DNA from: a virus
Reading direction: 5' to 3' (one strand)
Virus record (IMG/VR): IMGVR_UViG_3300051212_001551
Location: 1-22,708 of that record
DNA length: 22,708 nt
The notes beneath the pieces are model-generated. The model was given only the letters and a program-made list of their open reading frames with translations. It did not search any database and was not told the origin of the DNA. The stretch's first letter is position 1. Each line of letters starts with the position of its first letter. Below are positions 1,280 to 5,508 of the stretch, piece after piece. The translations under genes and the position numbers were made by a program.

Positions 1280-1725
1280 GATTTTATGAGTTTGAATTAA
1301 TCAAACACAAACAACCTGGCGAAATCGCCGACAAAGGAATTTCTGCTGCTAAATCGGCAGCAGGTGCTTCTAAAAGTGCTCTAGGTTCTTTAGGAAGGGG
1401 TGTCGCCAGAGGAGTTGGAATGTTTTTCAAAGATTTTGATCCAGCTATGCAGATGCTGTATAAAGACGGAGATCTCGAACAACAGAAAAAGCCAGCAGGA
1501 GCCGAAGATCGAAAGCGATTAAAGAATGCTCTGGGTAAGGTCTTAAACAACGAACCGATCGACGATAACGACCGCAGAGATTTAAAATTAGGATTAAATC
1601 GAGAGTGGTTTAAGGATATGGAAGATCCAGATTTTAAATCTGGAATACAAAAAATAATAGCTAAACAAACACCGCAAGGTCAAGAATTAGTTATGTTAAA
1701 GCGTGTACACGCAAAGATGTTTTAA
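1276..1725 (+). CDS. Hypothetical protein, 149 aa, coupled to upstream gene
   Basis: No family is recognised. The ATG at 1276 overlaps the TGA of the upstream gene (ATGA, 1276-1279), the usual signature of translational coupling, so the two proteins are probably made together. The protein begins MRFYEFELIKH, has an Ala/Gly/Ser-rich stretch (residues about 22-48), and then a charged, probably helical C-terminal half with DRKRLKNAL and DRRDLKLGL segments. No signal peptide or clear membrane helix is visible. The opening MRFYEF loosely resembles the MKLLEF start of the small protein at 7242 and the MKTYQEF capsid-targeting start of T4 internal head proteins; this is only a weak hint. Its stop codon (1723-1725) overlaps the convergent stop codon of the gp26 frameshift extension (1722-1724). 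Confidence 0.75.
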   Translation: MRFYEFELIKHKQPGEIADKGISAAKSAAGASKSALGSLGRGVARGVGMFFKDFDPAMQMLYKDGDLEQQKKPAGAEDRKRLKNALGKVLNNEPIDDNDRRDLKLGLNREWFKDMEDPDFKSGIQKIIAKQTPQGQELVMLKRVHAKMF

Positions 1726-1949
1726 AAGAAAGGCATCCCAGTCTTTTTTGTAGTTTCTAAGTTATCTTTGATAATTTCGCCAACAATCTTTCTTTCTTCA
1801 TAACTGAGGTGCATTGCCTCAGAATAAGACATTCCACGCATGTACCAGCATAATTTCAGTACATCGCGTTTTATCTCCAGAGCCTCTTTGTCTAGTTGAT
1901 CAGCATACAGTAAGATCTCCGGCTCGGATGATGTTAAGACCTTACCGCG
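1722..1949 (-). CDS. -1 frame extension of gp26 (probable frameshift product, 75 codons)
   Basis: The -1 frame relative to gp26 is open from about 1988 down to a TAA at 1722-1724 and has no ATG, GTG or TTG until an internal ATG at 1841-1839. After slippage at the TTTTTTC heptamer (1955-1949), translation would add 75 residues starting RGKVLTSSEPEILLYADQLD and ending KKTGMPFF, giving a fusion of about 357 aa (282 from gp26 plus 75). The extension is a plausible compact helical protein, with KEALEIKRDVLKLCWYMRG and SYEERKIVGEIIKDNLE segments, and fills what would otherwise be a 208-nt convergent gap. From memory, similar short proteins follow gp26 in T4-like cyanophages; a counterpart of gp51 is possible but not shown. 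Alternatives are initiation at a CTG behind a GGAG (about 1919-1907) or a missing T in the homopolymer. Confidence 0.7.
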   Translation of the reverse strand, partial: RGKVLTSSEPEILLYADQLDKEALEIKRDVLKLCWYMRGMSYSEAMHLSYEERKIVGEIIKDNLETTKKTGMPFF

Positions 1950-1958
1950 AAAAAATTT
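1910..1958 (-). promoter_or_regulatory. Probable programmed -1 ribosomal frameshift signal (slippery site plus hairpin)
   Basis: On the minus strand the gp26 codons TCA AAT TTT TTC contain two overlapping X XXY YYZ heptamers: A AAT TTT (1958-1952) and T TTT TTC (1955-1949). Three nucleotides downstream, GTAAGGTC (1945-1938) can pair with GATCTTAC (1917-1910), giving 8 base pairs with one G-U. Its loop holds a second hairpin, TCCG-AGC-CGGA (1928-1918). The outer stem could extend towards the heptamer with G-U pairs. The gp26 stop codon (1936-1934) lies just after the site. Slippery site, close downstream structure, nearby 0-frame stop and a start-less -1 frame are the four usual components of a frameshift cassette. 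Confidence 0.7.
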
Positions 1959-2794
1959 GATTGATCCATCGTGATTGGAGTGGTAAACTCATGTTCACAA
2001 TGTCCGCATTTAACTGATTGTGGTTTTAAATCAATCTCGTTTTTTATCTTTAACACATGATCGTGTATTTTTTCAAATACATCTTTTGGAGCATTATTTA
2101 GAAATTCATTGATAAATTGTTGATCAGTGACTGAACCTTCTGGAGTTTCGATTCTAGTAATACAACCTGCAACAAGATCAACAGTTAATTTTGTTAATTT
2201 AATAAATCCAGCTTGAAATTTTTCAATTTTTTCTTCATCGCTCATATTGTCATCGGTAGCGATTTGAACTAGTTTTTGTTGTTCTAATGTTTGTAAACTT
2301 GCTTTGGTAATTTCTCTATAAGCGTAAGGACGGATCTTAATAGTCAACGGATCAGCATCAACTGTATCGATATATTCAAATTGATCAAATTGATTGAGCC
2401 ACATTCTTAAATTCATCGCATAATCATTATCCTCTTTACAGCTAGGACATGTAACTGTAATTTCCATGTTTTCTCCGTATGTTGCTAAACGGATTGCAAT
2501 TAAACAGACATCAACATCAATCGAAGGCATATTCCATGGTTCTTTAATCGCTGGAATACAGCTTTTTATAACTTCAACTGTGCTTTGGCCAGATAATAAT
2601 GCATCTGGTGTTTTAAACAGCAACTCATCTTTGGCAGTCATGGCAAACACGGGATATTCGTCGTTAACACTTCTATCCAAACTACCTTCCGGATACCAAT
2701 GGCCTTTTGATGGTAACCTAATCCATATTTTAGGCTGTCGATAATATTGAGCCAGTGGATTATTGTTTTGTTGTGTTTTTTGCATTTCTGCCAT
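1934..2794 (-). CDS. 26: Baseplate hub / tail assembly protein, T4 gp26 family
   Basis: The 286-aa protein shows the T4 gp26-type baseplate family pattern: WIRLPSKGHWYP (residues 24-35), YPVFAMTAKDELLFKTPDAL (47-66), VIKSCIPAIK (75-84), DVDVCLIAIRLATYGE (93-108). Two Cys pairs, CPSC (116-119) and CGHC (263-266), look like a four-cysteine zinc site. T4 gp26 is 208 aa, so this is a longer form. The start at 2794 (MAEMQK) is chosen because GGAGA lies just upstream and the longer reading to 2872 would run through the promoter region. In T4, gp26 acts in assembly of the baseplate hub. Here it is transcribed divergently from the probable tape-measure gene. Its 3' end carries a probable -1 frameshift signal that would create a longer version with a helical tail, as in the G/GT tail assembly chaperones of lambda-like phages. 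Confidence 0.85.
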   Translation of the reverse strand: MAEMQKTQQNNNPLAQYYRQPKIWIRLPSKGHWYPEGSLDRSVNDEYPVFAMTAKDELLFKTPDALLSGQSTVEVIKSCIPAIKEPWNMPSIDVDVCLIAIRLATYGENMEITVTCPSCKEDNDYAMNLRMWLNQFDQFEYIDTVDADPLTIKIRPYAYREITKASLQTLEQQKLVQIATDDNMSDEEKIEKFQAGFIKLTKLTVDLVAGCITRIETPEGSVTDQQFINEFLNNAPKDVFEKIHDHVLKIKNEIDLKPQSVKCGHCEHEFTTPITMDQSNFFAVRS

Positions 2795-2859: not shown

Positions 2860-5508
2860 ATGGCCGTAACAATTGACATTCCTGGTGTAGGGCTAATTGA
2901 AGCCAATAATGCCGCTTCTGAGCAAACTCTAAAAGAGTTGCTTAAGATTATGAAAAAATGGGATCGCAAAATGGGCGGTGGCGGCCGTGGCGGCGGTGGA
3001 GGCACAGGTGGAGGCACAGGTGGGTCAGGAGGCGGCGGTGCTGGACCATATGATGAAAAAGGTCCGGTAGCAAGATCAATGAATCAATTTGGTTTAGCGA
3101 TAAACAGAGCCGCTATAATGACCGTGAGATTAGCCGATGGTATTACTAATACTTTGTCAACATTGGCTAATATGGGTGACAGTGTAGAATCTGCTGCCGC
3201 TGTGTTTTCAAAGATACCTATCATGGGAACTGTGTTTGCTGCGGTTGCTAGTGCGGTATCACAGACTACAAAAGCCTATCAATCCGCTGCACAATCAGGA
3301 GCAACGTTTGGCGGAAGTGTAAGCAATTTTGCTATGGCAGCTAGTAATGCTGGCATGACAATGCAGCAGTTTGGTCAGCTTATTGCACAAAATGGTGAAG
3401 CATTAAGATTATTGGGCGGCAACACCGAAAGCGGTGGTAAACGATTTGCCGATATTAGCAGAACATTAAGAAGTACTAGTCGTGATTTGTATAACATGGG
3501 TTATACCACCGAAGAAGTAAATCAAGGCCTAGCCAATTATACAAAGTTAACAGTACAGGGCGGTAAGAATACCAACATGACTAATGCAGAATTAGTCGCT
3601 GGTAGTAGAAAATATCTAAAAGAAATGGACTTGTTAGCTAAAGTAACAGGTGAAACTCGCAAACAACAAGAAGAAGCACAGGCAAAGTTAGCAGCAGATG
3701 CACAATATCAAGCAGCAATGGCAGGCATGAGTAAAGAAGTTGCTGACTCATTTAGAAACACAGTTACAGGATTACCGGGGCCATTAAGAGATGTTGCTAA
3801 AGATATCATGGCAACTGGTTCTGCGACTACGGAAGAAAGTCAACGTTTCATGGCAATGATGCCGCAGTCTGCAGAAATGATGAGACAGTTTGCTGAAAAA
3901 ACACAGCGCGGCGAAGAAATTAGCATGGCAGAAAGAAACAAGCTAAATGAAATGCTACGCATAGAAGGCAAGCAGGCAGCGAATCAATATAAAGATATTG
4001 GTAGATTTAGTGCAGACTTTGCTAAACAAACGAATATGTTTAATGCTGCCGCAGGAATTGGTGAAAACGCTTTAATAGATGGTGCCGCAGCACAAGAAGA
4101 GGCTGCTAAAAAGACAGACGGTCAAGCAGCGGCTTTAGAAGGAATTAAACAACAATTAGCAGCAATCAGCAATGAATTTTTAATGATGTTATCTAGTTCT
4201 GGTGTTATCGGAACAATGATGTCAATGCTGAGAGCAGTTGTTGATATTGTTAGAGATTTTGTAATACCAGCATTTCAAAATTATCTAGTTCCGGCAGTAA
4301 CTTGGGCAGCTGAAGTGTTTATCAACTATCTTGTACCAGCAGCAAAATGGTTAATCAAGGGTCTTATTCGTGCTGCTGAAGTTGTTATTGATTTTGTAAC
4401 TCCAATCTTTAATTGGCTAGGAAAAACGATAAAACATGTAATACATGAATTTGTAGTTCCTGCGATGTTGACAATTAGAAATATTATACAGGATTATTGG
4501 AAACCAATATTTCTAGGAATCGCAACAGTGATTGCAATAAAAGTGATACCATCATTGATTGCCAATGCGGCTACTATGATTGCAACGGCATTGGCAACAG
4601 CAGCCGCATGGTTGCCTGCTATTGCGGTAGCTGCGTTAGTTATAGGCGGATTCATGGCTATTAAATGGGCTATGGATAAATTTGGTCTAGATCTAGGGCT
4701 AATAGGTGATGGATTTAAATGGCTGTGGTCGTATCTTCAAGAATTTGGTCAAAATATTAAATTACTGGCACTTAAATTAATGGACATGATCACTGTCGGT
4801 GACGAATATAAACAAGCTATCAAAGATCAAGAAGAAGTAATTACCAAGACCAAAACTGATCGAGAGACTCTTGAAAAAGATATGTTGACCCGCCAACAAA
4901 AAAATCTTGATGAAAGAGCAAGGATAGAAAGAGAGCGAGAAAACGATAGGAAAAAAGCTGCACAAGGAAATTATCTAGAAGCACTGACCGGAATGAAAAT
5001 GTCAGATCTTAAAGGTCCGCAGTGGGGTAATACGCACTTAGGTGGCGGTGGTGGTGGCGGTTCTTGGACTAATCCTGCTAATCTTGGAAACATGCCAGGT
5101 TCCGGTAATACTATTGAAGATTATAAACCAGGCGCCGCCGGTCCAGGTTCATCAGGCCCAGTGGATTTAGGAAATATGAGTCCTGAAGAAAGTGCAAGAT
5201 ATGCATATAGTCTCCAGAATCCATCCATGGCAGGTGCTGATGCCCAGAAAAAACAAATAGAAGACAAGGCCAAAACTGAAGCTGAGGCAAAAGTCAAAGC
5301 AGAAGAAGCTGAACGTAAGAAAACAGAAAGTCAAAAAGGTGCTGCTGTCAACAGACCAGAATCTGCAGAATCGCTGTTAGCTGGCGTAAATACTAAACTT
5401 GAACAATTAATTAAGGTTAATAAGGTAGTAGCTGATTTAGCTGAAAGACAATTAAGCGTACAGAAAGGATTAGGCAATAACGTATTTGCATCGCCTACTA
5501 TGGCATAA
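2860..5508 (+). CDS. Probable tail tape-measure protein, 882 aa
   Basis: The architecture is typical of a tape measure, though no specific family is certain. After an N-terminal helix (MAVTIDIPGVGLIEANN) comes a Gly-rich linker (residues about 38-61), a long helical region (65-445) and a hydrophobic region (about 447-607). The hydrophobic region has spaced VPA/IPA and W/F motifs and membrane-helix-like stretches near 550-605. A charged coiled coil (about 651-704), a poly-Gly stretch (about 726-735) and an Ala/Lys/Glu helix (about 796-829) follow. T4 gp29, the T4 tape measure, is 590 aa, so a longer tail is possible. An in-frame GTG at 2755 would add 35 residues but would start inside the divergent gp26 gene; the ATG at 2860 sits downstream of the late-promoter box and a GGAAA. 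Adjacency to a gp26 gene with a probable chaperone-type frameshift supports the call. Confidence 0.7.
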   Translation: MAVTIDIPGVGLIEANNAASEQTLKELLKIMKKWDRKMGGGGRGGGGGTGGGTGGSGGGGAGPYDEKGPVARSMNQFGLAINRAAIMTVRLADGITNTLSTLANMGDSVESAAAVFSKIPIMGTVFAAVASAVSQTTKAYQSAAQSGATFGGSVSNFAMAASNAGMTMQQFGQLIAQNGEALRLLGGNTESGGKRFADISRTLRSTSRDLYNMGYTTEEVNQGLANYTKLTVQGGKNTNMTNAELVAGSRKYLKEMDLLAKVTGETRKQQEEAQAKLAADAQYQAAMAGMSKEVADSFRNTVTGLPGPLRDVAKDIMATGSATTEESQRFMAMMPQSAEMMRQFAEKTQRGEEISMAERNKLNEMLRIEGKQAANQYKDIGRFSADFAKQTNMFNAAAGIGENALIDGAAAQEEAAKKTDGQAAALEGIKQQLAAISNEFLMMLSSSGVIGTMMSMLRAVVDIVRDFVIPAFQNYLVPAVTWAAEVFINYLVPAAKWLIKGLIRAAEVVIDFVTPIFNWLGKTIKHVIHEFVVPAMLTIRNIIQDYWKPIFLGIATVIAIKVIPSLIANAATMIATALATAAAWLPAIAVAALVIGGFMAIKWAMDKFGLDLGLIGDGFKWLWSYLQEFGQNIKLLALKLMDMITVGDEYKQAIKDQEEVITKTKTDRETLEKDMLTRQQKNLDERARIERERENDRKKAAQGNYLEALTGMKMSDLKGPQWGNTHLGGGGGGGSWTNPANLGNMPGSGNTIEDYKPGAAGPGSSGPVDLGNMSPEESARYAYSLQNPSMAGADAQKKQIEDKAKTEAEAKVKAEEAERKKTESQKGAAVNRPESAESLLAGVNTKLEQLIKVNKVVADLAERQLSVQKGLGNNVFASPTMA

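Follow-up and report, generated by a model that had tools for sequence, protein, structure and literature searches.

A very probable -1 ribosomal frameshift at the end of gp26 in an uncultured T4-like phage and its relatives

Our analysis of a T4-like myovirus contig from an uncultured phage (the window, 22.7 kb, an entire IMG/VR record) indicates that ribosomes very probably slip back by one base near the end of gp26, so that two tail-assembly helpers, one short and one long, would come from a single message. We give a probability of about 0.93 to this reading, according to which hairpin-aided -1 ribosomal frameshifting makes the longer of two tail assembly chaperones (TAC-NC) and gp26 itself is the shorter (TAC-N), as for G and GT of phage lambda. 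Sequence comparison establishes the conservation of the slippery site, of the frame offset, of the extension and of the hairpin, together with homology to T4 gp26 and gp51. An earlier examination of the window without database searches (hereafter the sequence-only reading) had proposed a -1 frameshift joining gp26 to a start-less downstream frame, and the proposal is now backed by the conserved site and offset, by coding selection on the extension and by a covarying stem. When relatives were aligned as it had suggested, heptamer, offset and an open -1 frame under purifying selection were found in 40/40 members, and the stem was found to be conserved.

gp26, its slippery site and the -1 frame extension

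Besides gp26, the genes of the window that can be recognised by family encode the portal protein gp20, a head protease, the major head protein and a tail fibre. The gp26 homologue (1934-2794, minus strand, 286 residues) is the candidate TAC-N and is annotated in relatives as a baseplate hub subunit. It matches Pfam T4_baseplate (PF12322) with an E-value of 3.6e-21 and PHROG 150 (baseplate hub) with one of 3.3e-24. In fold searches, its predicted structure (mean pLDDT 77) hit T4-like gp26 models of BFVD (E 1.4e-24) but nothing significant among the solved structures of the PDB. A plus-strand open frame at 2-1279, truncated at the contig start, encodes 425 Gln/Gly-rich residues and had no match in a PHROG search.

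The 3' end of gp26 reads, on the minus strand, GAT CAA TCA AAT TTT TTC GCG GTA AGG TCT TAA and includes a double slippery site, A_AAT_TTT_TTC (1949-1958, minus strand), located four codons ahead of the stop. The two overlapping heptamers noticed at the outset, AAATTTT (1958-1952) and TTTTTTC (1955-1949), are both present and, read as A_AAT_TTT and T_TTT_TTC in the gp26 frame, both in the correct phase for -1 slippage. Taken from the window alone, their occurrence is not above chance: 38 in-frame XXXYYYZ heptamers are found per ~7205 codons, and T_TTT_TTC itself occurs in frame twice, the second time in the portal gene. Since heptamers are this common in the window, the case for a frameshift rests on the relatives, whose comparison excludes chance overwhelmingly. 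In a non-redundant set of 40 window-family sequences (<95% identity), T_TTT_TTC is invariant (40/40).

The -1 frame extension (TAC-C; 1722-1949, minus strand) comprises 75 codons and a stop. It runs from RGKVLTSS to KKTGMPFF (1949-1725), ends with a stop codon at 1722-1724 and fills the space exactly up to the convergent gene at 1276-1725. A scan of frames and starts bore out the earlier description of a frame open for 75 codons and start-less until its last 39, the first ATG, GTG or TTG being at 1841. The predicted frameshift product would thus be a TAC-NC of ~357 residues (1722-2794, minus strand), made of 282 residues of gp26 and 75 of the -1 frame. The extension alone is modelled as helical with low confidence, and this jumbo-type sequence gave no family match of its own.

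With the extension as sole query, homologues turned up in 445 IMG/VR stretches. All of the relatives first fetched (84/84) encode it in the -1 frame with respect to gp26 and have an in-phase T_TTT_TTC. Across the 40 non-redundant members, the extension frame is free of stops in every case while the two other frames average 5.2 and 5.4 stops, its pN/pS is 0.275 versus 1.23 and 1.39 in these frames, and diversity is 0.27/0.16/0.50 by codon position. Judged from these substitution patterns, the extension is under purifying selection.

A covarying hairpin downstream of the slip site

A putative 3' stimulatory RNA hairpin (1907-1948, minus strand) is located behind the heptamer after a spacer of 3 nt, which is rather short and speaks to some degree against the frameshift reading. 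The window hairpin has a minimum free energy of -17.8 kcal/mol (z -3.2), and 2 of 200 shuffled sequences fold equally well. The hairpin that the sequence-only reading had described is real and begins 3 nt past the slip, with a conserved stem of 10 bp (1945-1936 with 1919-1910); the second hairpin placed in its loop did not hold up, having only 2 bp in the minimum free energy structure and no conservation.

As RNAalifold alone predicted only five of the ten conserved pairs, the stem was tested for covariation as a named 10-pair structure, on 38 distinct aligned rows and against 500 shuffles. Among the cells of these rows, 91.3% are paired. Changes on both sides that keep the pairing amount to 27, versus a shuffle mean of 9.3, and none of the 500 shuffles reaches the score. 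When the stem partner is slid by one to three columns, pairing falls from 91% to 33-50%. The pair at columns 19-48 is AU in 23 sequences, GC in 14 and broken in none. By this covariation evidence, the stem shows compensatory changes and the hairpin is under selection.

Position-specific folding extends the observation beyond the window family. Over 169 non-redundant loci, the 45 nt that follow the slip have a mean z of -1.52, with 35% of loci below -2, versus mean z values from +0.20 to -0.29 and 5-8% below -2 at eight control offsets of the same loci (p 2.3e-28). A downstream hairpin is a general feature across lineages, and its sequence varies. Covariation and position-specific folding back the structure itself; stimulation of slippage is its putative role.

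Distribution in T4-like phages and competing explanations

Two scans, jumbo-type and cyanophage-type, were made with the gp26 profile only, so that the extension was not selected for. The -1 extension was found in 160 of the 160 loci obtained in this way, which are near neighbours of the queries rather than a census (three extensions are truncated by the contig end). The slip site is T_TTT_TT(C/T) in 151 and A_AAT_TTT in nine. These nine loci form a sub-lineage (L122, L126, L128, L134, L138, L144, L148, L167 and L175) whose gp26 ends with GTA AAT TTT TC(A/C) followed by the stop. Because T_TTT_TTC is missing there, A_AAT_TTT must serve alone as slip site; several of the loci have a strong hairpin directly after it (z -6.0 in L167).

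Slip site and -1 extension are also shared by 20 isolated T4-like phages, namely Phosso, Atu_ph07, PA5oct, 121Q, RaK2, S-CAM8, Bakedbeans, XaC1, Vibrio 2.275.O, SCTP-2, XacN1, CBB, GAP32, S-PM2, HTVC008M, ValKK3, phiM7, Moby, AS-szw and S13. The long protein is absent from the annotations of the isolate records examined.

The alternative that survives best, which we consider improbable, is that the extension is a separate gene with its own, perhaps non-canonical, start, translated by ribosomes that re-initiate upon terminating at the end of gp26. Such genes are real in Cygsa01 and Vibrio K476, where the heptamer is absent and the ATG of the extension overlaps the gp26 stop, and 54 of 70 cyano-like loci have an ATG close to the junction that might be used. 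In the window, however, initiation at the first available start would leave 39 residues only, and just 2 of 29 window-family loci have an ATG from which 80% or more of the extension could be made; a separate gene would also leave the slippery codons and the covarying stem unexplained.

Still less probable is transcriptional slippage, in which RNA polymerase would add a U at the T6 run and part of the mRNAs would carry gp26 and the extension in one frame. An extra U does give the same downstream frame and poly-T runs can slip, but six Ts are short for efficient transcriptional slippage, and in one sub-lineage the -1 extension persists behind AAATTTTTC, where there are five Ts only. The X_XXY_YYZ phase and a covarying hairpin at a fixed distance are better suited to slippage of the ribosome.

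Finally, an assembly or sequencing error that removed a T and split one continuous gene, the main alternative of the sequence-only reading, is refuted and its chance is negligible, error-prone as homopolymer runs are: the same offset recurs in 84/84 relatives, in 160/160 gp26-selected loci from different samples and in 20 isolates, the few isolates with runs of at least seven Ts (XacN1, HTVC008M, phiM7) still have the extension in -1, and none of ~260 independently assembled loci has a single continuous frame.

The signals that may stimulate ribosomal frameshifting differ between lineages: unrelated hairpins in jumbo phages, a hairpin together with an upstream Shine-Dalgarno-like element in cyanophages, and A_AAT_TTT alone in one sub-lineage. 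The Shine-Dalgarno-like GAGG/AAGG precedes the slip in 70/70 non-redundant cyano-like loci (L187-L266, L093, L267) and in 0/29 window-family loci. It overlaps conserved Glu-Gly codons, hence protein constraint may explain the motif; it may stimulate slippage or merely encode these two residues. We lean, by a modest margin of belief, towards the gp26 frameshift being the ancestral and near-universal route of T4-like phages to two chaperones, retained in the ~20 isolates sampled while its stimulators were exchanged, with the duplication in T4 and the split genes of Cygsa01 and K476 as derived losses.

Exceptions to the arrangement are T4, which has no slip site and separate genes 26 and 51, and the already mentioned Cygsa01 and Vibrio K476. 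In CBA120 (Ackermannviridae, L271, ~1690-1890), gp26 ends with GAG ATT TTC ATT TAA and has no heptamer; a homologous-looking -1 extension follows, without ATG and unannotated. S-SCSM1 (MK867354, L092, 3128-3371) keeps the T6 run at the gp26 end, with the extension in +1 and an ATG of its own; an indel or a sequencing error could account for this offset, or else the extension has become a gene in its own right. The case of Moby (L272, 1612-1793) is ambiguous, since the T_TTT_TTC slip coexists with an annotated ribosome-binding site and an ATG for the extension; it may stand midway between the frameshift and split-gene forms.

Relation to known tail assembly chaperones

By analogy with lambda, gp26 would be the abundant TAC-N. 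At A_AAT_TTT_TTC, a minority of ribosomes would slip back by one base with the aid of the hairpin 3 nt downstream, and would read 75 further codons in the -1 frame to make the scarce TAC-NC. Many copies of TAC-N and few of TAC-NC would then cover the tape-measure protein and bring in subunits of the tail tube. That slippage takes place in the window phage, with what efficiency, and that the products act as chaperones, is what we infer from sequence. In the lambda model, the tape measure protein is held by G and GT, which also attract the subunits of the tube (PMC5009743). Lambda G/GT resembles the window in combining a short protein with a low-level longer -1 form, in having an X_XXY_YYZ site near the 3' end and probably in the adjacent tape-measure gene. 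It differs by its protein family (that of the window is T4_baseplate, PF12322), by its slip sequence (T_TTT_TTC in the window) and by the orientation of the tape-measure gene, the probable one of the window being divergent.

A further parallel is offered by the T4 chaperones gp26 (TAC-N) and gp51 (TAC-NC). T4 gp26 is a direct homologue of window gp26, and both T4 gp26 and T4 gp51 match PF12322 as window gp26 does. phrog_634 is matched by residues 147-246 of T4 gp51, by the S-CAM8 and Bakedbeans -1 extensions and by the extension of S-SCSM1. The profile of the jumbo-type extension aligned with that of the gp51 C-terminal domain and cyanophage extensions over 34 columns (P 9.9e-6, probability 82%), whereas comparison of the extension profile with the single T4 gp51 sequence by hhalign gave no useful match. 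With this one profile match, we have moderate confidence that the window extension is homologous to, and corresponds to, the gp51 C-terminal domain. Unlike in the window, the long form of T4 comes from a second gene (51), and gene 26 ends with GAG TTC TTT GAG TTA CTA TAA, without slippery site. The shared profiles make T4 gp51 look like a ready-made copy of what would be the frameshift product in other T4-like phages, which fits the initial suggestion of an equivalence between G/GT and the separate T4 genes 26 and 51. An abstract by Vladimirov and colleagues from 2022 reportedly states that frameshifting appears conserved in several T4-like groups, the T4 group using genes 26 and 51.

In cyanophages (S-PM2, S-CAM8, S-SSM7), gp26 and gp51 (phrog_150 and phrog_634) are annotated as two genes; as in the window, a T_TTT_TTC, here one codon ahead of the gp26 stop, is followed by a homologous -1 extension, and unlike in the window family, GAGG/AAGG precedes the slip. 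The jumbo phages RaK2, 121Q, Atu_ph07 and PA5oct share the slip and the -1 extension with the window and, in most of them, the order portal, tape-measure-like gene and divergent gp26. Differences are that their gp26 has ~30-37% identity to that of the window and that their extension either is recorded as a small hypothetical protein or lacks annotation. In the Vandenendeviridae phage Adele, a member of another phage family, a -1 frameshift in the TAC gene (motif GTTTTT) was deduced by the same comparative logic; the accessible part of that report gives no covariation of an RNA stem (PMC12846349).

Among long-tailed phages, frameshifting of the G-T type is described by Atkins et al. 2016 (PMC5009743) as widely conserved, with T4 as the exception ('except T4'). 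The sequence-only reading knew of no described frameshift at this locus in T4-like phages; as far as the accessible text of PMC10885494 and PMC12846349 goes, this was overtaken, since Vladimirov, Gautam and Davidson 2022 (Virology 566:9-15) identified T4-like TAC genes and are the source given in the latter for -1 signals of the poly-T kind within the TAC-N genes of T4-like phages. The accessible part of PMC10885494 also states that certain T4-like phages rely, in place of frameshifting, on two genes, a short one and a long, fused one. Our main addition is the covarying hairpin, which recurs in different lineages with a different sequence; the accessible portions of these sources describe neither this nor the extension in the jumbo-type family. 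The findings place a G/GT-type frameshift, as a very probable event, among the numerous T4-like phages, although T4, the best known of them, had long been quoted as the exception. They would account for the 'hypothetical proteins' of small size and the gaps in annotation that follow gp26 in the genomes of jumbo phages and cyanophages. The loci also lend themselves to the study of constant slip sites with changing stimulators, and of the replacement of a frameshift by a duplicated gene.

The probable tape-measure gene (2860-5508, plus strand, 882 residues), which the sequence-only reading had placed next to gp26, does adjoin it but is transcribed divergently, which is not the usual operon layout. 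This divergence makes the layout unlike that of lambda and counts against the frameshift and chaperone reading. The product has two strongly hydrophobic segments, at residues 550 and 577, and no convincing family match in Pfam or PHROG. The equivalent gene of RaK2 is annotated as similar to tape measure protein, and the divergent arrangement is kept in window-family loci. In HTVC008M, the annotated tape measure gene is co-directional, downstream and one small gene away. As for the proteins themselves, the PA5oct record flags neighbours of gp26, and not gp26, by ESI-MS/MS, and gp26 is annotated as structural in the record of CBB.
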